Shown here piece by piece: positions 9,397 to 35,165 of a stretch of DNA of 35,165 bases. Numbering within the stretch: the first letter of the stretch is position 1; the number at the start of each line of letters is the position of its first letter. The stretch is from NCBI GenBank assembly GCA_017881795.1, contig JADGQM010000006.1, positions 1 through 35,165 on the forward strand. The letters are read 5' to 3'. The DNA is from Syntrophobacteraceae bacterium. Its GTDB lineage: Bacteria > Desulfobacterota > Syntrophobacteria > Syntrophobacterales > Syntrophobacteraceae. The notes beneath the pieces were generated by a model. It saw only the letters and a program-made list of their open reading frames with translations, had not been told where the DNA came from and searched no databases. The translations under genes were made by a program, and so were the position numbers.

Positions 9397-12009
9397 ATGA
9401 AACCACGTGAAAAGAAAACCGAGAACAAGGTCTTCCCCATCGTCGGAATTGGGGCTTCCGCAGGGGGGCTTGAGGCTTTCGAGCAATTCCTGCGCAACAT
9501 GCCACCCGACAGCGGCATGGCCTTCGTCCTGGTCCAGCATCTCGACCCCACACGTAAGGACATCATGGCCGAGCTTCTGCAGCGGGTTACCAAAATGAAG
9601 GTCTTTCAGGTTAATGATGGGACGAAGGTTGAACCGGACTGCGTCTACGTGATCCCACCAAACAAAGACATGTCGATCCTGCATGGCGTTCTCCACCTCA
9701 TGGAACCATCTGCTCCGCGTGGGTTGCGTCTTCCCATTGATTTCTTTTTCAGACACCTGGCGGAAGATCAGAAAGAGAGGAGCATCGGGATCATCCTTTC
9801 CGGCATGGGAACGGACGGCAGCCTGGGGCTGAAAGCCATCAAGGAAAAGATGGGCATGACCATGGTACAGTATCCTGCATCGGCCAAGTTCGGCGGGATG
9901 CCCGGCAGCGCCGTCGATATGGGTCTTGCCGATTACATCGGCCGCGCCGAAGACCTGCCGGCAAAACTGTTCGCCTATGTCAAACACACGGCTGCCTCCA
10001 AGGCCCGGTTAGCCACCGAGGAAAAGACTTCAGGCGCCCTGGAGAAGGTTTGTATCCTGCTGCGAGCCCATACGGGCAATGATTTCTTCCTCTACAAAAA
10101 GAATATGCTCTCCCGCCGCATTGAAAGACGGATGAGCATCCATCAGATCGACAAGATCGTCCTGTATGTCCGTTTTCTTCAGGAGAATCCCCATGAGCTC
10201 GATTTGCTCTTCAAGGAACTGCTGATCGGGGTGACTGATTTCTTCCGGGACCCTGACGCTTTTGAGGGATTGAAAGGAAAGGCCATCCCCATGATCTTGA
10301 AAAACAGAACGATGGATAACACCCTGCGGATTTGGGTCCCGGGATGTTCCACGGGGGAAGAGGCCTATTCCATGGCCATCATCCTGAGAGAGACGCTGGA
10401 TGAGGTCAAAAGCAAATCCGGGTATAAGATCCAAATCTTTGCCACCGACATCGACAAGGACGCGATTGATAAAGCCCGTCAGGGCATATACCCGGGCAGC
10501 ATTACTGCTGATGTGTCTCCTGAGCGTTTAGAGAGATTCTTCGTCAAAGAGACCGGCAACTATCGGGTCAGCAAGGAAATCCGGCAGATGGTGATCTTTG
10601 CCTCCCAGAACGTCACTACCGACCCGCCCTTCACCAAGCTCGACCTTGTCAGTTGCAGGAATCTCCTGATCTACCTGACACCCGAACTGCAAAAGAAGCT
10701 CCTCTTCCTCTTTCACTACTGCTTGAAGCCCCAGGGGATTCTCTTCCTCGGTCCATCCGAGACCGTAGGAAGCACTACCGACCTCTTTACCACCCTGGAC
10801 GCCAAATGGAAGCTTTATGTGCGCCGGGAGTCCGCTGCTGCCATGATGCGGGGACTTGAGTTTCCCTCATCCCTTTTTTCTCCTGAAACGATTGAAAGGG
10901 AAGGGATGAGAAGAGGTGACGGTGTCCTTGTGGGCAGCATTCAAGATCTGGCGAACCGGCTGTTGATCGAGAACTTTACGCCACCAGCCGTGCTCATCAC
11001 CGATCAGGGTGACATCCTGTATGTAAGCGGGCACACGGGGAAATACCTTGAACCTGCAGCCGGGAAGGCCAATCTGAATATCTATGCCATGGCGCGTGAA
11101 GGGCTGCGCTATGAACTGGGAAGCGGGGTGAGCAGGGCTTTGGCCGAGAATGAAGTCGTTATCTTGAAGGGACTCAAGGTAAAGACCGACAGCGCCAACC
11201 AGACTATTAACCTCACCATCAAGCCGGTGACCGAGCCGGAAGCGCTGAAAGGGCTCCTGCTGGTTGTCTTTGAGGATGTGGCTGAACCCCTGGCGACAAA
11301 ACGCTCCCGCAGCAAAAGAATGGTCCCGGAAACCTTCCATGACGACAGGGTTGTCGAATTGGAAAGAGAGCTGCAGTATACCCAACACAATCTTCAGAAA
11401 ACCCTCGAAGAAATGCAAACTTCCCAGGAAGAGATCAAGTCAGCCAGCGAGGAGCTGCAGTCAACCAATGAGGAACTGCAGAGCGCCAACGAAGAGTTGA
11501 CCACATCCAAAGAGGAGCTGCAGTCTCTCAACGAGGAGCTCATGTCAGTCAATGCAGAGCTGCAGACCAAGATCGATGAATTGACCCTGACTCACGACGA
11601 TATGAAGAACCTCCTCAACAGCACTGACATCGCGACCCTCTTTCTTGACGGTGATCTGAACGTGAGGCGCTTTACCCCCCAGGCGACCGGGATCATTAAG
11701 CTGATCAACAGCGACGTCGGGAGGGCGATCACCGACATAACCACGAGTCTTCAATATGACGCTCTGGTGGACGATGTAAAGAGGGTGCTGGAGACCCTTG
11801 TTTTTAAAGAAACCCAGGTGATGACAAAAACCGGGCAGTGGTACACGGTGCGCATCATGCCTTACCGCACCTATGAGAACGTGATTGACGGGGTGGTGAT
11901 CACCTTTGCGGACATTACGGCATTGAAGCGACTGGAAATATCGCTAAGGGAGAACGAGGAGCGCTTGAAGGTTCTCCTGAGCCGAGATAATCCGGAGGCG
12001 CGAACTTGA
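9397..12009 (+). CDS. CheB-CheR fusion protein with coiled coil and PAS domain
   Basis: ATG 9397 is chosen, giving 870 residues, because AAAAGGGG precedes it and the protein then runs straight into the CheB domain; a frame from 9229 adds 56 unlikely residues. The first about 190 residues are a CheB methylesterase domain without a receiver, with GIGASAGG (Ser), QHLDP (His) and GMGTDGSLG (Asp). A CheR methyltransferase follows (about 220-480), with the SAM loop [14 protein letters not shown]. Then come a ligand-type PAS region, a long Glu/Leu coiled coil with repeated EELQS.NEEL units (about 670-740), and a last PAS domain. Such fusions act in receptor-like methylation or sensory circuits, often feeding kinases. 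The stop overlaps the TTG start of the next kinase, implying coupled translation. Confidence 0.9.
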
Positions 12010-16214: not shown

Positions 16215-17651
16215 ATGAAAACCTTACTCCTTAACCCCCCTTCCTTCGAAAAATTCGACGGGGGGGCAGGCTCTCGCTGGCCGGCACGCCGAGAGATAAG
16301 TTCCTTCTGGTATCCCGTATGGTTGTCCTACCCTGCAGGCCTCATCAAAGAAAGCCGCTTGCTTGACGCTCCGTCCCACGGGGTGACTCCTGAGGAAACC
16401 GTCCGGATCGCCAGGGATTACGAATTTGTTGTCGTCTTCACCAGCACCCCTGGATTCAAGAACGATATCTTACTCGCCGAAAGAATCAAGGATACCAGCC
16501 AGGGAGTTAAGATTGCCTTCGTTGGTCCACCCGTGTCGGTGTTGCCGGAAGAGACGCTCAAGGCTTCAGCCGCGATTGACTTTGTGGCCCGGAGGGAATT
16601 TGATTACACCATTGCCGAGTATGCCTGGGGAAAGCCAATTGAGCAAATAAGCGGGGTCTCGTTCAGGGGGAATGGGCAGGTGATCCACAATCCTGATCGC
16701 CCTCTCCTCGACGATCTCGATTCCCTTCCTTTCGCCGTAGAAATTTACAAACGTGACCTCGACATAACGAAGTACAATGTACCGTTTTTGCAGCACCCGT
16801 TCATCGCGTTCTATACCTCCCGCGGGTGTCCGGCCTTTTGCACCTTCTGCCTCTGGCCGCAAACCTTCGGCGGTCACAAATGGCGCTGTCGGAGCAGCGA
16901 AAATGTTGTGGCCGAGATCCGGAGAGCCTTCGAACTTTTTCCCAACGTCAGGGAAATCTTCTTTGATGACGATACGTTCGCCTGGGGGAAGGCCAGAGTT
17001 CTGGAGCTTTGCGGCAAACTGAGGCCGCTCAACTTTACGTGGTCGTGCACCTGCCGCGTACACGCCGACTTTGAGATGCTCAAGGCCATGAAAGAAGCGG
17101 GTTGCCGCTTGTTGATCGTAGGCTTCGAGTCGGGGGATCCGACCATTCTGAAGAACATCAAGAAGGGAGCCACGGTAAAGCAGGCACTTGCCTTCATGAA
17201 GCACTGCAAAGAGCTCGACATCAGCGTTCATGGTGATTTCATCATCGGGCTTCCCGGAGAGACTCCCGAGACCATCATGCGTACGATCGGCTTTGCGGAA
17301 GAACTGGATTGCGAGACCATCCAGGTATCCATCGCTCATCCCTATCCGGGGACCGCATTTGATTCCTACGTGCGCCGCCACGGCTACCTGACCGATGATG
17401 ATATGGCCGATGAACTGGGCCACCAGCTTCCCAATCTTCAGTATCCCGGGCTTTCCAGGGAGGAGATCGTCGAGGCGGTCGAGTACTTCTATGGCAGGTA
17501 TTATTTTCGCCCTAGAATCGTTTTCAGAATCCTGCGACGGGCGCTGTGGGACCACGACGAACGCACCCGTTTGTTCCGTGAGGCCAAAGAATATCTGCAA
17601 TTGCGCGCCAAGAGGAAACGGTTCTCCAGGGCCAAAACGGCGCCATCCTAA
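16215..17651 (+). CDS. hpnJ: Hopanoid-modifying radical SAM protein HpnJ
   Basis: The 478-residue protein matches HpnJ throughout: LLNPPSFEKFDGGAGSRW at the start, a B12-binding-like N-terminal domain, then the radical SAM core with SRGCPAFCTFCLWPQTFGG (CxxxCxxC near residues 204-211), FFDDDTFAW, and GDFIIGLPGETPET. HpnJ is known to act after HpnI and HpnK, contracting the sugar ring on glucosaminyl-bacteriohopanetetrol to the cyclitol ether. The [4Fe-4S] cluster cysteines are all present. ATG 16215 has only a weak AGAG site. The gene begins a plus-strand run hpnJ-hpnK-hpnI, with hpnK starting 34 bases after its stop. No early squalene-hopene genes are in the window. Confidence 0.93.
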   Translation: MKTLLLNPPSFEKFDGGAGSRWPARREISSFWYPVWLSYPAGLIKESRLLDAPSHGVTPEETVRIARDYEFVVVFTSTPGFKNDILLAERIKDTSQGVKIAFVGPPVSVLPEETLKASAAIDFVARREFDYTIAEYAWGKPIEQISGVSFRGNGQVIHNPDRPLLDDLDSLPFAVEIYKRDLDITKYNVPFLQHPFIAFYTSRGCPAFCTFCLWPQTFGGHKWRCRSSENVVAEIRRAFELFPNVREIFFDDDTFAWGKARVLELCGKLRPLNFTWSCTCRVHADFEMLKAMKEAGCRLLIVGFESGDPTILKNIKKGATVKQALAFMKHCKELDISVHGDFIIGLPGETPETIMRTIGFAEELDCETIQVSIAHPYPGTAFDSYVRRHGYLTDDDMADELGHQLPNLQYPGLSREEIVEAVEYFYGRYYFRPRIVFRILRRALWDHDERTRLFREAKEYLQLRAKRKRFSRAKTAPS

Positions 17652-17685
17652 CCGACAACTCCATTGCACCTGTGTCCCGGACTCG

Positions 17686-18552
17686 ATGCATCAGGCTCAA
17701 GTGATTATAAACGGGGATGATTTTGGCAAGTCCCAGGAAGTGAATGATGCCATCATCCATGCCTTCAAAGCGGGGACGCTTACCAGTTGCAGCTTGATGG
17801 TGACTGGGGACGCTTTTGAGCATGCGGTGCGCTCAGCCAGGGAAAATGTCGATCTGGCCGTTGGCATCCATCTCGTTACCGTACAAGGCAAGGCGGTCCT
17901 GCCCCATGCTGAAATTCCCAATCTCGTCGATGGGAAAGGTCATTTCCCCGAAAGTCCTGTTGCCGCCGGCCTGAAATATTACTTTTCACGAGTGGCGCGC
18001 GAACAACTGACCAAAGAACTCGCTGCACAATTCAGGAGATTCCACGCCACCGGACTCAGACTCTCTCATGTTGACAGTCATCTCCACATGCACGTCCATC
18101 CGGTGGTCTTCGCCGCTGCCCTCAACCTTGCCGAGCTTTACCAGGTCAGGCGGATGCGAGTCCCCTATGATGATTTCCGGATCGCGGTGCGATTTCAGAG
18201 GAAGAGCTTGCCGAGCAAGGCAATAGTCGCTCTGATCTTTTGGCTGCTTACACGACGGATGAGAAAACCCCTTCAAGATCGTGGCTTCTCCTTTACCGAG
18301 CGCGTTTACGGTCACCTTTTGAGCGGTGGGATGACCCTCGAATACGCCCTTTTTCTTCTGGAGCATCTCTCAACAAAAACCAATGAGATCTATTTCCATC
18401 CCGCAGTTGCCGAGAGCTTTCCTGCCTCGAATTTCCAGCAGCTTCAAAGCGTCAGGGAGCTTGACATCCTTACCAGCAGCGCATTCAAGAAGCGACTGCA
18501 TGGTCCTGGCATTATTCTGACAGACTATTGCAGACTGGCAGGCGGCGAATGA
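17686..18552 (+). CDS. hpnK: Hopanoid biosynthesis deacetylase HpnK (YdjC/ChbG family)
   Basis: The 288-residue protein starts MHQAQVIINGDDFGKS and carries the ChbG/YdjC-fold metal and catalytic motifs: GDDFG near residue 9, VGIHLVT near 60 and HVDSHLHMHVHP near 123. HpnK removes the acetyl group from N-acetylglucosaminyl-bacteriohopanetetrol before HpnJ acts. ATG 17686 is chosen because the residues before it (HCTCVPDS) are not protein-like, although the upstream ribosome site is poor, which suggests dependence on translation from hpnJ. The stop TGA overlaps the ATG of hpnI (ATGA). Confidence 0.92.
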   Translation: MHQAQVIINGDDFGKSQEVNDAIIHAFKAGTLTSCSLMVTGDAFEHAVRSARENVDLAVGIHLVTVQGKAVLPHAEIPNLVDGKGHFPESPVAAGLKYYFSRVAREQLTKELAAQFRRFHATGLRLSHVDSHLHMHVHPVVFAAALNLAELYQVRRMRVPYDDFRIAVRFQRKSLPSKAIVALIFWLLTRRMRKPLQDRGFSFTERVYGHLLSGGMTLEYALFLLEHLSTKTNEIYFHPAVAESFPASNFQQLQSVRELDILTSSAFKKRLHGPGIILTDYCRLAGGE

Positions 18553-19685
18553 TCACCATCATCCTGACGCTTTTGAGCATTGTGTCGATTTGCTACTATT
18601 TTACCTGCATCGTTGCCGCACGGCGGTTCTTCTCGCGGCCACCGGTTGCGAGAAGCTCGCCGTTGCCTCCCGTCTCGATCATGATCCCTCTTTACGGCAA
18701 GGATTTTGAGGCCTATGAGAATTATGTCTCCTTCTGTCGCCAAGATTACTCAGATTACCAAATCGTCTTTGGTGTAAACAACCTACAAGACTCGTCGATT
18801 CCTGTTATCCGAAAATTGATTGCTGATTTTCCCGATAAGGATATCACGCTTGTGATCGATGCGGGGGTCATCGGGCAAAATCCCAAAGTTAACAACCTCA
18901 ACAACATGCTCAAGATGGCAAAACATGATGTATTGGTGCTCGTTGACAGTGATATCAGGGTGGCCGCGGATTATCTCGCACGGGTTGTCTCTGAGCTTGC
19001 GAGCGAGCGAGTGGGTCTCGTTACCTGTCTCTATCGGGCGGGTAAGGCGCCGAATTTTGCAGCAAAGCTCGAAGCGGTTGGGATAACAGGAGAATTTGGG
19101 CCGGGAGTCCTGGTTGCGTGGCTTATCGAGGGCCTTGCCTTTGCCTTGGGCGCAACCATTGTGACCACGAGGAAGCACCTTCAGGCTATCGGAGGCTTTG
19201 GAGCCATCGCGGATTATCTTGCTGACGATTTCATGCTCGGCAACCTCATGTCACAGGCCGGCTATGAGGTCAGGCTTTCATCATACGTTGTAGAAATCGT
19301 ACTGCCGCCAACCACGTTGATGAGCATGATCAAGCACCAGGTGCGCTGGGCGCGAGGTATCAGAGCATGTCGTCCCTGGGGCTATTTGGGTTCCATCGTG
19401 ACCCATGGGACGGTCCTCGCACTGCTGTTGGTCCTCGCCAGCCAAGGTTCGACGCTTAGTCTCTCGCTCCTGGCAATGACGCTCGGTGCCCAGATGGCAA
19501 TGAACCGCAGGGTAGCCATCGCCAGGCTGGGCGACAATCTCTTACGGCAGCACTTCTGGTTGGCGCCCCTGAGAGATCTTCTCGGCTTCTTGTTCTGGTG
19601 TCTAGGGCAGACGGGAAAGAACGTGGAGTGGCGAGGAAGGACCTTCAAACTCGTCGACGACGGGAAAATGGTGGCTAGTGGCTAG
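18549..19685 (+). CDS. hpnI: Hopanoid glycosyltransferase HpnI
   Basis: The 378-residue family 2 glycosyltransferase has an N-terminal membrane helix (MITIILTLLSIVSICYYF) and a catalytic domain with VSIMIPLYGKD, VLVDSDIRV (DxD-type), and LADDFMLG followed by QVRWARG (the QxxRW motif). C-terminal hydrophobic segments follow. This matches HpnI, which adds N-acetylglucosamine to bacteriohopanetetrol at the inner membrane and resembles ceramide glucosyltransferases. ATG 18549 overlaps the hpnK stop by four bases, with AGGCGG before it; the frame could start at TTG 18528 but that would bury the start in hpnK. The stop codon lies inside the large palindrome at 19677-19720. Confidence 0.92.
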   Translation: MITIILTLLSIVSICYYFTCIVAARRFFSRPPVARSSPLPPVSIMIPLYGKDFEAYENYVSFCRQDYSDYQIVFGVNNLQDSSIPVIRKLIADFPDKDITLVIDAGVIGQNPKVNNLNNMLKMAKHDVLVLVDSDIRVAADYLARVVSELASERVGLVTCLYRAGKAPNFAAKLEAVGITGEFGPGVLVAWLIEGLAFALGATIVTTRKHLQAIGGFGAIADYLADDFMLGNLMSQAGYEVRLSSYVVEIVLPPTTLMSMIKHQVRWARGIRACRPWGYLGSIVTHGTVLALLLVLASQGSTLSLSLLAMTLGAQMAMNRRVAIARLGDNLLRQHFWLAPLRDLLGFLFWCLGQTGKNVEWRGRTFKLVDDGKMVASG

Positions 19686-21815: not shown

Positions 21816-21937
21816 CTCGATTTTGAACCAAACTTCACCATTAAGACGCGCCAGAATATAGCCCAGGCGGGGTCAAATGAAAAGCAGTAAACCTCTCGCA
21901 GAGTGAGCAGAAAGCCAGGCGCGACCAACTTGACACT

Positions 21938-21953
21938 TGGCAATACTTTTGCT
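21938..21953 (+). promoter_or_regulatory. Sigma-54 promoter motif before the second deacetylase
   Basis: TTGGCAATACTTTTGCTA has GG at 21939-21940 and GC at 21951-21952, with the invariant 10 bases between, and otherwise fits TGGCAC-N5-TTGCW well. Transcription would begin near 21963, leaving a leader of about 34 bases to ATG 21997. A perfect palindrome TTTTGCTAGCAAAA (21947-21960) overlaps the -12 element. No convincing upstream activator palindrome was found in 21816-21937. Confidence 0.65.
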
Positions 21954-21996
21954 AGCAAAAATCACCTTTTATCCAAATGAGAGAAGAAGGGAAGAT

Positions 21997-22881
21997 ATGG
22001 CAGGTGCCGGGAAGCGAATTCTGATCGTCAATGCGGATGACCTTGGTTATACGCAGGGTATTAACCAAGCCATAAGGCAATGCTCGGTTGCCGGGATCCT
22101 GCGCAGTTCCACGATCATGGCCAATGGTCCTGCTTTCGATCACGCCGCGGCCATGGTCAAGAGCAATGAGAACCTGGATGTCGGCGTGCATCTGGTGCTT
22201 ACAGAACTTCCTCCGGTCTCGCCCTCGACAAAGATTCGCGGGCTGGTTGATGACCGAGGATTCCTTCCGGGCAGTCCCTGGGAACTCAAGGCTTTGCTTC
22301 TTGGAGGAAGAATCAGCAGGGAGGCGCTTCAACAAGAGCTGAGGAGTCAAATCGTCAGAGTTCTGGACTGTGGTTTACAACCTACGCATTTGGACAGTCA
22401 CAAACATGTGCATGTCATGCCCCAGGTCTTGGAAGTCGTTATCGAACTCTCGCATGAATTTTCCATCCCCTGGATTCGCAATCCCTTTGACGAAACGGCC
22501 TTTTTCCGCTTCCTTCATCTAGTGGACAGGAAAAGAAAGCGAGCATTTTGCATCCAGCATTTGAAGGCGAAAGTGATTGGAGCTTATCGGCCTTCCTTTC
22601 TTGGACGTATAAAGGGATCCGGTGTGTGTCTACCCGACCATTTCTTCGGGATTTCAGTCACCGGCATCTGGAATGAGGCCGTCATGATCGAGCTCCTTAA
22701 CGAGCTCCCACCAGGAATAACCGAATGGATGGTCCACCCCGGCAATTGTGACCAGGATCTGCTCCGGTCGGACACCCGTCTGCACGAGCAGCGTGAAAAG
22801 GAGAGAGACTTGCTGACCTCTCCGGCATTACAGGAACACCTCGCCCGGCAGCGCATCACCTTGAGCAGTTACCGATCATAA
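21997..22881 (+). CDS. ChbG/HpnK-family carbohydrate deacetylase (second copy)
   Basis: ATG 21997 is supported by AGAAGGGAAG upstream, giving 294 residues; the longer frame from 21937 starts inside the sigma-54 promoter motif. Motifs are VNADDLGYTQGIN, DVGVHLVLTELPP and THLDSHKHVHVMP, covering the Asp and His residues expected of the family. Its C-terminal GITEWMVHPG also fits. It is clearly related to HpnK but diverged, so its substrate could be another acetylated sugar-lipid or glycan. It is transcribed alone and faces the receiver-protein gene, overlapping its 3' end by 13 bases. Confidence 0.87.
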   Translation: MAGAGKRILIVNADDLGYTQGINQAIRQCSVAGILRSSTIMANGPAFDHAAAMVKSNENLDVGVHLVLTELPPVSPSTKIRGLVDDRGFLPGSPWELKALLLGGRISREALQQELRSQIVRVLDCGLQPTHLDSHKHVHVMPQVLEVVIELSHEFSIPWIRNPFDETAFFRFLHLVDRKRKRAFCIQHLKAKVIGAYRPSFLGRIKGSGVCLPDHFFGISVTGIWNEAVMIELLNELPPGITEWMVHPGNCDQDLLRSDTRLHEQREKERDLLTSPALQEHLARQRITLSSYRS

Positions 22882-29384: not shown

Positions 29385-29400
29385 TGGCATAAGTATTGCT
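29385..29400 (+). promoter_or_regulatory. Sigma-54 promoter motif of the RiPP-like operon
   Basis: TTGGCATAAGTATTGCTT has GG at 29386-29387 and GC at 29398-29399, exactly 10 bases apart, fitting the -24/-12 consensus TGGCAC-N5-TTGCW at nearly every position. Transcription would start near 29411, giving a leader of about 43 bases to ATG 29454 or 222 bases to the B2 start at 29633. A palindrome about 90 bases upstream may be the activator site. Confidence 0.7.
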
Positions 29401-29453
29401 TAATAGGCGCGCGGCAAAATTAGGACTGATCTAGGGCCTTCGAAGCCTGTCTC

Positions 29454-29618
29454 ATGGTGAATCTTTTCAAATTGCTGAAGCAGGGATCCTGTCCTTCTCC
29501 GGGTGATAGGAGGTCCCCTGGGGTGGGGGGAGGCAGGATCGGCGGGCCGGAGAGCAACGATTTGAATCCACAAAGGCTTCTCGAAGGTGCAGCTTCATCA
29601 ATCGTTGGAGCCGGTTGA
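29454..29618 (+). CDS. Possible 54-residue peptide, first frame after the sigma-54 promoter
   Basis: ATG 29454 opens a 54-codon frame that ends at TGA 29616-29618, 15 bases before the B2 start. The peptide begins MVNLFKLLKQGSCPSPG, is Gly-rich in the middle (SPGVGGGRIGGP), and ends RLLEGAASSIVGAG. It has no good ribosome-binding site, and its base composition gives no clear coding signal. Its position is that of a leader or RiPP precursor gene. Treat as speculative. Confidence 0.25.
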   Translation: MVNLFKLLKQGSCPSPGDRRSPGVGGGRIGGPESNDLNPQRLLEGAASSIVGAG

Positions 29619-29632
29619 GCAGGAGGGGAACG

Positions 29633-30151
29633 ATGCATCGGCTACTCAAAAGCGCGAAGGATGCCAGGCCAGAAGAAGTTCTTGTCGGTGAGGCAGGGCG
29701 CTTGGCGTTGGGCGTGCAGATCTTCGAGAACCTCATCCGGGCCTGGATGATTAAAGCGACGAAAAGGATGGCTCGAGTTAAATTGCCGGAGGTGCAGGCA
29801 GACAGGCAATTGTCTAACCGCAACCTGTCGTTCGTAATAACTTGCGCGGATATCGCCGTAAGGTTCGGAACACCGCGGACCATGCGTAAATGCTTCTTTC
29901 GTGCATTCATTATGGCTTCTGTTCTACGGACACAGGGCATACCAGTAGAGATGAATGTGGGCCTGTGTGGTTTCGGGGATTCCCCGGGAAAGAAGCGTGT
30001 TGACGGTCATTGTTGGCTGACGTTCGATGATCACCCATTCGCAGAGTCAGGAGAGCCCAGGAAGGAGTATCCGGACTTCGTAGGGGTTGCCCCCAACGGG
30101 GTTCGTTATTGGCTGGGTCTGGGACGTTCAGGCAAAGTGGATATGCCGTAA
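29633..30151 (+). CDS. Lasso-peptide B2-type transglutaminase-like protease
   Basis: ATG 29633 is preferred, giving 172 residues, because AGGAGGGG lies 5 bases upstream; TTG 29615 is a possible longer start overlapping the upstream stop. The C-terminal half is the transglutaminase-like domain of lasso peptide B2 proteins: Cys in MRKCFFRAFIMASVLRTQGI, then PVEMNVGLCGFG, and His in DGHCWLTFDDHPFAE, making a Cys-His-Asp triad. In lasso systems B2 cuts the leader from the precursor. The next gene encodes the B1-like leader-binding partner, 47 bases on. No cyclase (C protein) gene is seen nearby. Confidence 0.82.
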   Translation: MHRLLKSAKDARPEEVLVGEAGRLALGVQIFENLIRAWMIKATKRMARVKLPEVQADRQLSNRNLSFVITCADIAVRFGTPRTMRKCFFRAFIMASVLRTQGIPVEMNVGLCGFGDSPGKKRVDGHCWLTFDDHPFAESGEPRKEYPDFVGVAPNGVRYWLGLGRSGKVDMP

Positions 30152-30198
30152 TGGTTGGGCTGGAAGGGAATTTGTAAGTGAGGGAGGGACATTGATCC

Positions 30199-30477
30199 AT
30201 GAGCAAACACAAGAGCGAGGCCCAGTTGTTGAAGCCTCGCAATGACCTTGCGTGGCGGGAAATACGTGGTGAGTTTGTTGCGGTCGATATGAATTCTGGT
30301 GATTACCACACTTTTAATGAGGTTGGTGCGTTCATTTGGCGAAGAATCATTGCGGGTAGAGACCCTGAATCGATTCTTGATGAAATAATGGCAGAATATA
30401 AAGTGACCCGTGAAAAGGCTGGTAGTGATTTCGATGCATTTGTCCAGGTCCTGAAGAGTAATTGCCTGCTACAGTAA
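30199..30477 (+). CDS. PqqD-like RiPP recognition protein (lasso B1 type)
   Basis: The 92-residue product matches the PqqD fold used as a RiPP precursor recognition element: LKPRNDLAWREIRGEFVAVD, the turn MNSGDYHTFNEVGAFIWRRI, and the helices of DPESILDEIMAEYKVTREKA. Such proteins bind the leader peptide and deliver it to the protease or other enzymes. GAGGGAGG lies 12 bases before ATG 30199. Placed after the B2 protease, it completes the leader-binding plus leader-cutting pair. The order is B2 then B1, the reverse of the usual lasso order. Confidence 0.82.
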   Translation: MSKHKSEAQLLKPRNDLAWREIRGEFVAVDMNSGDYHTFNEVGAFIWRRIIAGRDPESILDEIMAEYKVTREKAGSDFDAFVQVLKSNCLLQ

Positions 30478-30589
30478 TGCCGCCGCCCACACGCAAGGGT
30501 GAGCTACGACTGTTCCACAAAATCAGTAAATTTCAGAAAGGTTTGAGTGAGTTTGGCGGCATTTGCCAGATGCGTTTGCCGCTAGCCGG

Positions 30590-30608
30590 CCGTGGGGTGG
30601 GCCCACGG
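30590..30608. repeat. Small GC-rich hairpin between B1 and the candidate precursor
   Basis: CCGTGGG (30590-30596) and CCCACGG (30602-30608) form a 7-bp stem with a 5-base loop. There is no following T run, so a processing or pausing signal between the B1-like gene and the candidate precursor gene is as likely as a terminator. Confidence 0.4.
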
Positions 30609-30643
30609 AGTGTAGAATCAACATACCCAGAGAGGAGAGCAGA

Positions 30644-30790
30644 GTGAGGGAAGAGAGGAAAGATCGCGAGCAGTTTCTGAGTCACGTCCTTGAGGAAAAG
30701 AAGGACTATGAAAGCCCGGTAGTCAAGCGCTATTCCCCGCTGGAGCATGTTCGTCAGTGGGTCGACAAATCCTCAGAGCTTGTGTTTTAG
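30644..30790 (+). CDS. Candidate RiPP precursor peptide
   Basis: The GTG at 30644 follows AGAGGAGAG and opens a 48-residue frame. A charged N-terminus (VREERKDREQF) leads to DYESPVVKRYSPLEHV, which fits the Y-x-x-P-x-[LV] leader motif that PqqD-like proteins bind in lasso precursors (YxxPxLxxxG). The remaining twelve residues RQWVDKSSELVF would be the core. A Glu sits at a position that would allow a 7-9-residue ring depending on the cut site, but the usual Gly at position 1 and the Thr before the cut are missing, and no cyclase gene is present. It lies 166 bases after the B1-like gene. The reading as a precursor is inference from leader motif and context. Confidence 0.5.
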   Translation: MREERKDREQFLSHVLEEKKDYESPVVKRYSPLEHVRQWVDKSSELVF

Positions 30791-30985: not shown

Positions 30986-31357
30986 ATGAGGCTCATCCTA
31001 TTCATGATCTTCGGCATCATCAATATGTTCATCGCCCAGAAAAAGGGATTCAATCCCTGGGCATGGCTACTGGCTGCAGGTCTGTTGGGCCTGATCCTGC
31101 TAGCTTGCCTGCCTTCCGCAATGGCTCAAGGAATTGATGAAGCGACTCGCCACAGACGCAGGAAGACCGACACTAGCATAGGCATTGCCATCTCCGTGCT
31201 TGGTCTTCTCCTTGCCATGGTATTTACTCAAAAACGACGGGTTCGAGCTGAGATTTCTTTGTTTCATGCGGCTTTCATTAGTTTATTGAACTTCCATTGC
31301 ATGGTATGTTCAAATTGGTTGCAGACTAAATGGTTTGTAAAATTACTTTTCAATTGA
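30986..31357 (+). CDS. Small membrane protein, 3' end replaced by IS sequence
   Basis: ATG 30986 follows GAGAGGAA with 5 bases spacing. The first about 79 residues form a two-helix membrane protein: MRLILFMIFGIINMFIAQKK, then WAWLLAAGLLGLILLACL with AMAQ, and a basic loop (RHRRRK) before IGIAISVLGLLLAM. From 31221 the frame reads into the inverted repeat of the insertion sequence, so the last about 45 residues (VFTQKRRV onward) come from the IS. The original ending is lost. It sits just after the attC-like site. No function assigned. Confidence 0.55.
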   Translation: MRLILFMIFGIINMFIAQKKGFNPWAWLLAAGLLGLILLACLPSAMAQGIDEATRHRRRKTDTSIGIAISVLGLLLAMVFTQKRRVRAEISLFHAAFISLLNFHCMVCSNWLQTKWFVKLLFN

Positions 31358-32670
31358 AATATACTCCAGGACCGCCCTGCGCAAATGTCTTTTTTCCGAG
31401 CACGAATCAATACGAGATAGGCGATAATGGCTATTCCAATTGATTTCTCGATGCGGTCGAGGTTCTTTGTGACTTGATGTTCGCCTAAACCCAGACCACT
31501 TTTGAGCTCTCTGAAGAGAATCTCAATGGACCATCTCCTTTGGTAGACGGAAATCACCTGTCTTGCTGTCAACTCTACGAGATTGGTCACCAGTATCTTG
31601 GTTTTTTTCGGGCCCACGTTACGCCCTTTTTTGCTCAGAACAATGGTGACATCACCGATGTGACGAAGGCGAGTACGCTTTCTGAATACCCAAAAGGTCT
31701 TTCGGCCTTTGTTATCCACTAACCGAGGAATCCATGTTCTTTGAAAAGTTTTGAGTGGGATATGCTTGACCAAATTGCTCAGGCTCTTTCCGTCTTCCAT
31801 ATTCCAGGTTCGGGCAATGGCAAACACAAACCCCCAGCGTCGCTCCGGGTCTGCCTGATCCAATTGCTTTATGAGTTGCATATTGTCTTTGGAAGCAAAC
31901 GCTGCATCGGCTGTGACGATCACAACTTTTGCCCAACTGGGCGGCTTGAAGCCTTTGAGCATCTCGCGGAACAGCTCATTTTCCGTTTTATAGTCAGGAT
32001 CTCCTTTGGGCAAGACAATGCGAAAATCTACAGGAATGCGATAGACATCCCATTGGACCATCAACAACACAAATTTGATGCCGAAGAAATAAGCGTGCAT
32101 CTCGCTTGTCTTCCCTTTCTGTGCTGCCGGGTTCTTTTTTCCTCGCTTGTCCTTTTTACTACCGTCGCCAGCAACGTAAACCACTTTGTCTTCAGGTTCG
32201 GGAAATGATTTGATGGCTCCTTCCGCAAACCACGACAGGAGGATGTTTAAGCTCCAGTATCCAGCGGCAAGCAAACGCCGAAAGTGCCATTCGGCAATAT
32301 GAGAGGGCGCCATTTGGGAAAGCCCTTTCAACGTCCTTGGGCCGGTAAGAATCATCTGCATCAGGACCAACCAGCAGAAAACCAACTGGTGTCGGTAACG
32401 AAAGACCGATGGCATGCCCTTGAACAAAACCCTTACGAAGTCTGGCAAATATGTAAACCCAGTGAATTTTACTATTGTTTCCATCATGGCTGAGACCTCC
32501 CTGCAAATTGGTGGTCTCTAACCATATAGAAAAAGATTTGGATTGTCCCGTGAAATGCGAACAGCTAAGCATCATACTCGAACAATTTCTCTGACCAGAT
32601 CTTAATAGACTGCCTCTTCCCTTGCCTCGCCTGCCGCCGAGGAGGAGTGCCTGTCGTTTTTGAGTAAATA
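31221..32670. mobile_element. IS4-like insertion sequence
   Basis: The element is bounded by perfect 18-bp inverted repeats, TATTTACTCAAAAACGAC at 31221-31238 and its complement at 32653-32670, about 1,450 bp in all. It carries one transposase gene on the minus strand. I see no target-site duplication: the flanking bases (CCATGG on the left, TAACAC on the right) do not match. Either the junctions have been rearranged, or one flank was deleted after insertion. The left end truncates the membrane-protein gene. Confidence 0.85.
31264..32487 (-). CDS. IS4-family DDE transposase
   Basis: The 407-residue protein has the DDE transposase features: first Asp in VYVAGDGSKKD (near residue 107), second Asp in VIVTADAAFA (near 195), and the IS4-family Y-x2-R-x3-E-x6-K signature in YQRRWSIEILFRELK (near 320) with the third acidic residue. 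GGAGG precedes ATG 32487. The frame is intact, so the element could still be active. The N-terminal region (FKGMPSVFRYRHQLVFCWLV) contains the DNA-binding part. Confidence 0.92.
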   Translation of the reverse strand: MMETIVKFTGFTYLPDFVRVLFKGMPSVFRYRHQLVFCWLVLMQMILTGPRTLKGLSQMAPSHIAEWHFRRLLAAGYWSLNILLSWFAEGAIKSFPEPEDKVVYVAGDGSKKDKRGKKNPAAQKGKTSEMHAYFFGIKFVLLMVQWDVYRIPVDFRIVLPKGDPDYKTENELFREMLKGFKPPSWAKVVIVTADAAFASKDNMQLIKQLDQADPERRWGFVFAIARTWNMEDGKSLSNLVKHIPLKTFQRTWIPRLVDNKGRKTFWVFRKRTRLRHIGDVTIVLSKKGRNVGPKKTKILVTNLVELTARQVISVYQRRWSIEILFRELKSGLGLGEHQVTKNLDRIEKSIGIAIIAYLVLIRARKKDICAGRSWSIFQLKSNFTNHLVCNQFEHTMQWKFNKLMKAA

Positions 32671-33145: not shown

Positions 33146-33367
33146 ATGGCCTTGTCCGCACAACAGATCATCGAATCCTTTGAAGGTTTGCCGGAATCGG
33201 AAAAGCAGAGAGTTGCCTATGAAATCCTTCGCCGCAGTGTCTATCTCGATGTTCCTCCGCTCGCTGACGAGGAGCTTGTCGCTGCAGCAGAAGACCTTTT
33301 CCTAGCCCTTGACGCGAGAGAATCGGAAAATGGCTCATCCGAACCGGGGAGCGATTTGGTTAGTTGA
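33146..33367 (+). CDS. Antitoxin of a MazF-type toxin pair
   Basis: ATG 33146 follows TAGGAGAATAGC. The 73-residue acidic protein (MALSAQQIIESFEGLPESEKQRVAYEILRR opening, then PLADEELVAAAEDLFLALDA) matches small unnamed antitoxins found immediately before MazF/PemK-like toxins. Its end overlaps the toxin start by 38 bases in another frame, the common coupled arrangement. It has no visible DNA-binding fold. The antitoxin is intact while its toxin is broken, so it no longer needs to counter that partner. Confidence 0.75.
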   Translation: MALSAQQIIESFEGLPESEKQRVAYEILRRSVYLDVPPLADEELVAAAEDLFLALDARESENGSSEPGSDLVS

Positions 33368-33644
33368 TCTTGGGCTTGCAGCCAAAGTGCGTCCATGCCT
33401 GGTTCTCAGCATCCAGTATGAAGAGGAGGACCGGTCGCTTGTAACTGCCATTGCTCATAATACAAGCCCGCGCTCCTCTTGATTTGAGGTGAGTGTCAAA
33501 ACGGGCTTTCTGCGTTCTGGTGTATTTGATGCGCAAAATATCGTGACCATACCGAGAGGAAAGCCGCTCAGAAAGCTTGGCAAACTCAATCCTTCCCAAA
33601 TAGCAGATGTTGAAACAGCCGTCCGTCTGTGGCTTGGTCTCTGA
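33330..33644 (+). pseudogene. MazF/PemK-type toxin with an in-frame stop codon
   Basis: From ATG 33330, 104 codons read as a MazF-type endoribonuclease: RGAIWLVDLGLAAKVRPCLVLS, then SLVTAIAHNTSPRSS, the stop TGA at 33480-33482, and after it FEVSVKTGFLRSGVFDAQNIVTIP, continuing to VRLWLGL. The frame is unbroken on both sides of the single stop, and in relatives this position is usually Arg, as in RGSRFEV, so one C to T change from CGA would explain it. The translated toxin would be a 50-residue fragment without the second half of the fold. Selenocysteine insertion is unlikely, as nothing in the family uses it. Confidence 0.85.
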
Positions 33645-34800: not shown

Positions 34801-35165
34801 ATGGACGTGATTGAAATCGAGGCCCGGACGGCTCTGGTCCGCTCCAAAATTCCCGGCGTCAGCTACGTAATCAATCCCTACCTCGGGTGTGCTCATGGAT
34901 GTTTGTATTGCTACGCCGTCTTCATGCGGAAATATTCCCGCTGCCACACGCATGCCCGATGGGGTGATTTTGTGGAGTGCAAAGCAAATATCGTCGAGCT
35001 CCTGCGAAAGGAGCTGAGTCGTAAAAAGAGCCCGGGGTCCGTCATGGTTTCCAGCGTCTGTGACCCTTACCAGCCGGTAGAGCGGCGAAGGCAGCTCACG
35101 AGGGGCTGTATCGAGGTTTTGCGTGAGTTCGAGTGGGAGGTGGAAATCCTCACACGATCGCCGCT
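34801..35165 (+). CDS. SplB-like radical SAM protein (3' partial)
   Basis: ATG 34801, just after the M28 stop, opens a frame that runs off the window end. The first 121 residues include NPYLGCAHGCLYCYA, with the radical SAM CxxxCxxC motif near residues 30-37, and VSSVCDPYQPVERRRQLTRG. This is the pattern of the SPL-family radical SAM proteins related to spore photoproduct lyase. The role is not known for these non-spore relatives. It may be co-transcribed with the peptidase. Confidence 0.85.
   Translation, partial: MDVIEIEARTALVRSKIPGVSYVINPYLGCAHGCLYCYAVFMRKYSRCHTHARWGDFVECKANIVELLRKELSRKKSPGSVMVSSVCDPYQPVERRRQLTRGCIEVLREFEWEVEILTRSP

Follow-up and report, generated by a model that had tools for sequence, protein, structure and literature searches.

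A stretch of 35,165 nucleotides from a Syntrophobacteraceae bacterium, referred to here as the window, constitutes an entire contig (C384) of an assembly of 486 contigs estimated to be 92.6% complete, so that statements about the locus end at position 35165. Near its downstream end, three intact open reading frames follow one another on the plus strand. They encode a B2-type transglutaminase-fold cysteine protease of 172 residues (29633..30151), a PqqD-family RRE protein (B1) of 92 residues that is predicted to bind a leader (30199..30477), and a 48-residue precursor peptide with a GTG start (30644..30790). Shine-Dalgarno-like sequences precede all three; the one ahead of the peptide, read from the sequence, is AGAGAGGAGAG (30624..30643, plus strand). 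The initial annotation had described such a run of a B2 protein, an RRE protein and a lasso-like leader peptide, and its coordinates and identifications are borne out by the intact frames, the profile matches and a leader score of 26.9 bits. The peptide frame has a GC content by codon position of 63/27/63, resembling other genes of the contig. As other identities for the locus, a defence system and an RNA element found no match in PADLOC and Rfam, respectively.

The protease matches Pfam Transglut_core3 with an E-value of 6e-9 (36.2 bits; cut-off 26) and reaches 24.2 bits with the NCBIfam model lasso_biosyn_B2, under the cut-off of 33. Cys87, Gly110, His126 and Trp128 are invariant across an alignment of 18 B2 proteins, and in an AlphaFold model (pLDDT 84) Cys87 opens a helix and His126 lies within a strand. 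Judged from sequence, Cys87, His126 and Glu138 are the likely catalytic triad. The position of Glu138, twelve residues beyond the histidine, is occupied by Glu or Asp in the cyclase-free branch described below and mostly by Gly in the aligned B2 proteins of cyclase-linked loci, and it may mark two protease types. Searching the PDB with the B2 model was uninformative, with nothing below an E-value of 0.6. In the source genome this is the sole B2 match. The PqqD protein matches Pfam PqqD with an E-value of 1.8e-16, and its best matches among solved structures are TbiB1 and TfuB1.

The precursor peptide is recognised by its leader, KKDYESPVVKRYSPLEHVRQ. Scored with a profile of 29 peptides taken from other loci, the window peptide excluded, this leader obtains its 26.9 bits, compared with 12.0 for the second-best site in the window and a top score of 19.4 across 300 Markov-randomised windows. 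The 48 residues align in register with known and newly found YxxPxL leaders, and the peptide is the only one of the YxxPx[LV] type found genome-wide, although the E-value of that wider search is not independent, because its profile contained the window peptide itself. Conservation of the peptide, whose absence would have counted against the initial annotation, extends to the leader; a close homologue of the full 48 residues was not found. The motif is significant by profile, but its Leu is replaced by Val and Thr(-2) by Arg in the window. Ile(-2) is a validated exception to Thr(-2) in lasso leaders (PMC10368454). Thr(-2) is present in all 17 other peptides that lack a C protein, and Gly1, replaced here by Trp1, in 14 of those 17. 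With both residues missing, cleavage of the window peptide may be altered or lost.

In lasso leaders the Tyr is measured at position -17 (PMC10368454). This rule places the start of the core at Trp1 and gives WVDKSSELVF preceded by Arg(-2), instead of the core RQWVDKSSELVF proposed in the initial annotation; the accompanying argument that a peptide without Gly1 and the leader Thr is not a normal lasso precursor stands. A lasso precursor calls for a core of threading length with Asp or Glu at 7-9; the predicted core falls short of this with ten residues, Glu7 only and no acid at position 8 or 9. The YxxPxL peptides from cyclase-free loci number 18, window included. By the Tyr(-17) rule their cores measure 7-14 residues (median 8), compared with 15-44 residues (median 22) for 19 cyclase-linked peptides; all were chosen by leader motif, and the sequences are related and hence represent fewer independent events than peptides. 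The two ranges do not overlap but nearly touch, at 14 (L071) versus 15 (L141). Asp or Glu occurs at position 8 or 9 in 19/19 cyclase-linked peptides and in 3/18 cyclase-free ones, where it is the final residue. WVDKSSELVF groups with the cyclase-free set, all 18 cores of which contain Ser.

The initial annotation had also noted that no C protein is seen up to the window end. A tblastn search of the whole 35-kb contig with four cyclase-type proteins agrees, returning nothing credible and no remnant, with a downstream reach of about 4.4 kb to the contig end. An IS element lies close by, outside the RiPP locus (31221..32670, no strand assigned). It is bounded by 21-nt inverted repeats (31221-31241 and 32650-32670, 95% complementary), and its DDE transposase is encoded on the minus strand (31264-32487). 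It begins about 430 bp beyond the peptide stop and interrupts a small membrane-protein ORF starting at 30986, and the genes downstream of it look unrelated to the RiPP locus. With a membrane-protein ORF interrupted and seemingly unrelated genes beyond, a lost cyclase is evident on neither side of the element.

Phylogenetic placement was approached through both proteins. A direct B2 search of a collection of genome contigs, of plasmids and of 98 related genomes returned no sufficiently close homologue. The nearest relatives were located via PqqD in genomes of the phylum and in GTDB contigs, with neighbourhoods mapped by local profile models, and a PF13471 search of 395 phylum genomes supplied the B2-size loci for retrieval and mapping. 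In a tree of 52 B2 proteins, a 37-row side, 29 rows of which have a cyclase within 8 kb, separates from a 15-row branch that includes the window (support 98/97). Within this branch, 13 of the 15 loci have no cyclase nearby, and 11 of those 13 have radical-SAM genes; in several rows, contig ends restrict the cyclase and radical-SAM labels. The window B2 groups with rows from Desulfobulbaceae and Nitrospirota (99/97), outside the cyclase-linked clade, and a PqqD tree, built on few columns, agrees on this clade (99/91). The window B2 is itself a long branch (1.9), and none of its relatives in the tree exceeds 25% identity to it, so that, given also the truncated neighbourhoods, its exact placement is less sure than these support values suggest. 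Taken from sequence, the trees and core lengths suggest a separate branch, mostly devoid of the ring-closing enzyme and dedicated to much shorter peptides.

These results bear on the proposal that the locus is a lasso cluster whose cyclase has been lost or works from another site in the genome. The B2, PqqD and leader sequences are homologous to lasso parts, and the genome does encode three full-length Asn-synthetase-like (AsnB-like) proteins. However, none of them neighbours B2 or PqqD: two, on contig C430, adjoin a glycosyltransferase-like gene, and the third, on C68, sits between glycosyltransferase-like and epimerase-like genes. The ten-residue core, with no acidic residue at 8 or 9, is also unlike all 19 cyclase-linked peptides, the window holds no cyclase remnant, and the trees put the locus outside the cyclase-linked clade. 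We consider this proposal very improbable. Loss through the IS, one of the options of the initial annotation, finds no support in the insertion into a membrane-protein ORF, the contig free of cyclase remnants and the mostly cyclase-less, short-core branch. Homologous loci with a C protein where the IS sits were looked for, and the sole Asn-synthetase-like gene in the close clade (L062, Nitrospirota) lies upstream of B2; its product scores 400.6 bits against an ordinary asparagine synthase cut-off of 267.1 and 232 against a lasso-cyclase cut-off of 525.

Two kinds of cyclase-free cassette accompany the window in its branch. The first combines PqqD, B2, an HPrK-like protein and a B12-radical-SAM enzyme (B12rSAM), mostly with an NTP_transf_5 nucleotidyltransferase (NTase), often with DUF362, and with one to six small peptides, exemplified by MKKDYEKPELVIYEDLSDVTA followed by GGEPVSGTIT. 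Such cassettes occur in Desulfoferrobacter suflitae (L039/L063), in genomes G085 (L043) and G327 (L048), and in Bacillota MAGs (L070, L076). D. suflitae belongs to the same family as the window genome, and its cassette has the order PqqD-B2-HPrK-B12rSAM-peptide-NTase, with the peptide KKAYEKPELYLYESLQNLTG followed by GIVDPSKPLP and no cyclase gene across the 20 kb read. G085, a 100% complete genome, carries a cassette with six peptides, and a credible Asn synthetase is absent from the whole of it. Tiny YxxPxL peptides with cores of 7-10 residues form arrays of up to six copies (L043:7321-8660; L048:11734-12628; L070, about 10030-10213, minus strand; L076, about 10020-10198, minus strand), and NCBIfam lasso models call none of the three peptides drawn one each from L039, L043 and L048 above cut-off. 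Like the window, these cassettes are cyclase-free, have short Ser-containing cores and a related leader, and fall on the same B2 branch. The window differs in lacking HPrK, B12rSAM, NTase and DUF362, and in having Arg(-2) and Trp1 in place of Thr(-2) and Gly1. A published name for these short-core cassettes was not found.

The second kind, from Desulfobulbaceae (L041, L060), contains an HPrK-like gene, an NTase, two SPASM-like radical-SAM genes and a B12rSAM gene, with B2 last. Together with related Desulfobulbaceae cassettes (L041/L061, L040/L059, L060, L152), Nitrospirota L062 supplies the closest B2 and PqqD proteins, and L062 shares the B2-PqqD order of the window. These loci differ from it by their HPrK (not found in L062), SPASM-like radical-SAM, NTase and B12rSAM genes, and L062 by its Asn-synthetase-like gene. 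In the DNA read for these closest relatives the YxxPxL profile finds no peptide, so the pairing of the window's B2 and PqqD with such a peptide is not seen in the nearest clade. For instance, L041:9623-17577, L060:247-8186 and L062:5406-16231 are multi-radical-SAM cassettes with PqqD, B2 and NTase (HPrK-like in L041 and L060) and no recognisable precursor peptide.

Among characterised systems, the split B1/B2 lasso clusters (paeninodin, pseudomycoidin, bsf; TbiB1, TfuB1) resemble the window in their PqqD-family B1, their transglutaminase-like B2 protease and an in-register YxxPx[LV] leader. The window differs by having no cyclase, a ten-residue core in which positions 8 and 9 are not acidic, neither Thr(-2) nor Gly1, the order B2-B1-A, and a B2 of another clade. 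The RRE-Finder survey counts almost 8,000 discrete lasso-type RREs; a peptidase and cyclase accompany only about 4,000 of them, and radical-SAM enzymes about 300 (PMC7470986). By these counts, the existence of such genes is already known in bulk. That survey treats the lasso-type RREs without peptidase and cyclase as false positives of the model, and in the part considered here it describes no class that pairs B2 with short cores (PMC7470986). In the open literature searched, no description of a short-core B1/B2 class without a cyclase was found.

As the probable explanation we favour an intact and minimal RiPP operon of three genes, belonging to a branch of the lasso-type B1/B2 machinery that is free of the cyclase, and yielding a peptide of about ten residues that is linear or modified in trans. 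The PqqD protein would bind the YxxPxV leader and pass it on to the B2 cysteine protease; cleavage about 17 residues past the Tyr, near the bond between Gln38 and Trp39, would then free the decapeptide WVDKSSELVF. Relatives within the branch encode a B12-radical-SAM enzyme and an HPr-kinase-like protein, usually along with a nucleotidyltransferase, and these enzymes presumably modify their short cores, which contain Ser. The homologous kinases of lasso clusters have Ser as their phosphorylation target, and PsmN, the N protein, places hexoses on phospho-Ser (PMC9266682); together with the Ser in every cyclase-free core, this guides the chemistry predicted for the full cassettes. A linked B12-radical-SAM cassette enzyme, an HPrK-like gene and an NTase are all absent from the window contig, so the product would be left linear or be modified by enzymes encoded elsewhere.

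The absence of a modifying enzyme on the contig could also mean that the locus is decaying. The three genes would then be the leftover of a larger radical-SAM-type RiPP cluster whose tailoring genes were lost or moved, no longer functional and bound to decay. Every near relative has radical-SAM genes close by and the window has none that fits, an IS has been active next to the peptide, Thr(-2) and Gly1 are missing, and two genomes of the same phylum hold B2-like stretches with several in-frame stop codons, possibly decayed B2 genes (G028:C42:109980-110192; G069:C1:990799-991020). The intact frames with their ribosome-binding sites, normal codon-position composition and preserved B2 catalytic residues point the other way, and we regard a remnant as unlikely. 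Modification in trans by radical-SAM enzymes of other contigs appears improbable. A candidate for it is a locus on contig C273 of the same genome (L158, 187-5506), where two B12-radical-SAM proteins come after a SPASM-type enzyme and the second of the two has a C-terminal PqqD-like domain, the genome's only other PqqD match. These enzymes are just 21-26% identical to the cassette enzymes, unlinked to the window as far as the assembly shows, and equipped with a PqqD domain of their own. The C273 locus starts at a contig edge, so its precursor may be missing.

The locus may represent an undescribed RiPP class, a suggestion to which we give slightly less than an even chance. The class would comprise a cyclase-free B1/B2 branch in Thermodesulfobacteriota, Bacillota and possibly Actinomycetota, making peptides of 7-14 residues decorated by B12-radical-SAM, kinase and nucleotidyltransferase enzymes, and the window would be its smallest representative, releasing a free decapeptide with nothing but protease and RRE. 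B2 and PqqD genes of this kind are labelled as lasso-peptide genes by annotation pipelines. A missing cyclase goes together with a short core that has no ring-closing acid, and this sharp association offers a simple rule for separating the two kinds and draws attention to a group of small modified peptides. It further suggests a module for recognising and removing the leader that evolves independently of lasso cyclisation.

Elsewhere in the window, a B12-radical-SAM gene (16215-17651) was considered as a maturase and rejected, being of the hopanoid HpnJ type. It belongs to a group of hopanoid-type genes (16215-19685) that also includes deacetylase-like and glycosyltransferase-like genes, and a second deacetylase-like gene lies at 21937-22881. 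Beyond the IS, short ORFs at 33146-33644 resemble, as judged by eye, an antitoxin gene and, after it, a PemK/MazF-like toxin gene broken across two frames. A radical-SAM-like ORF sits at the contig end (34801-35163), where only 121 of its codons are visible.
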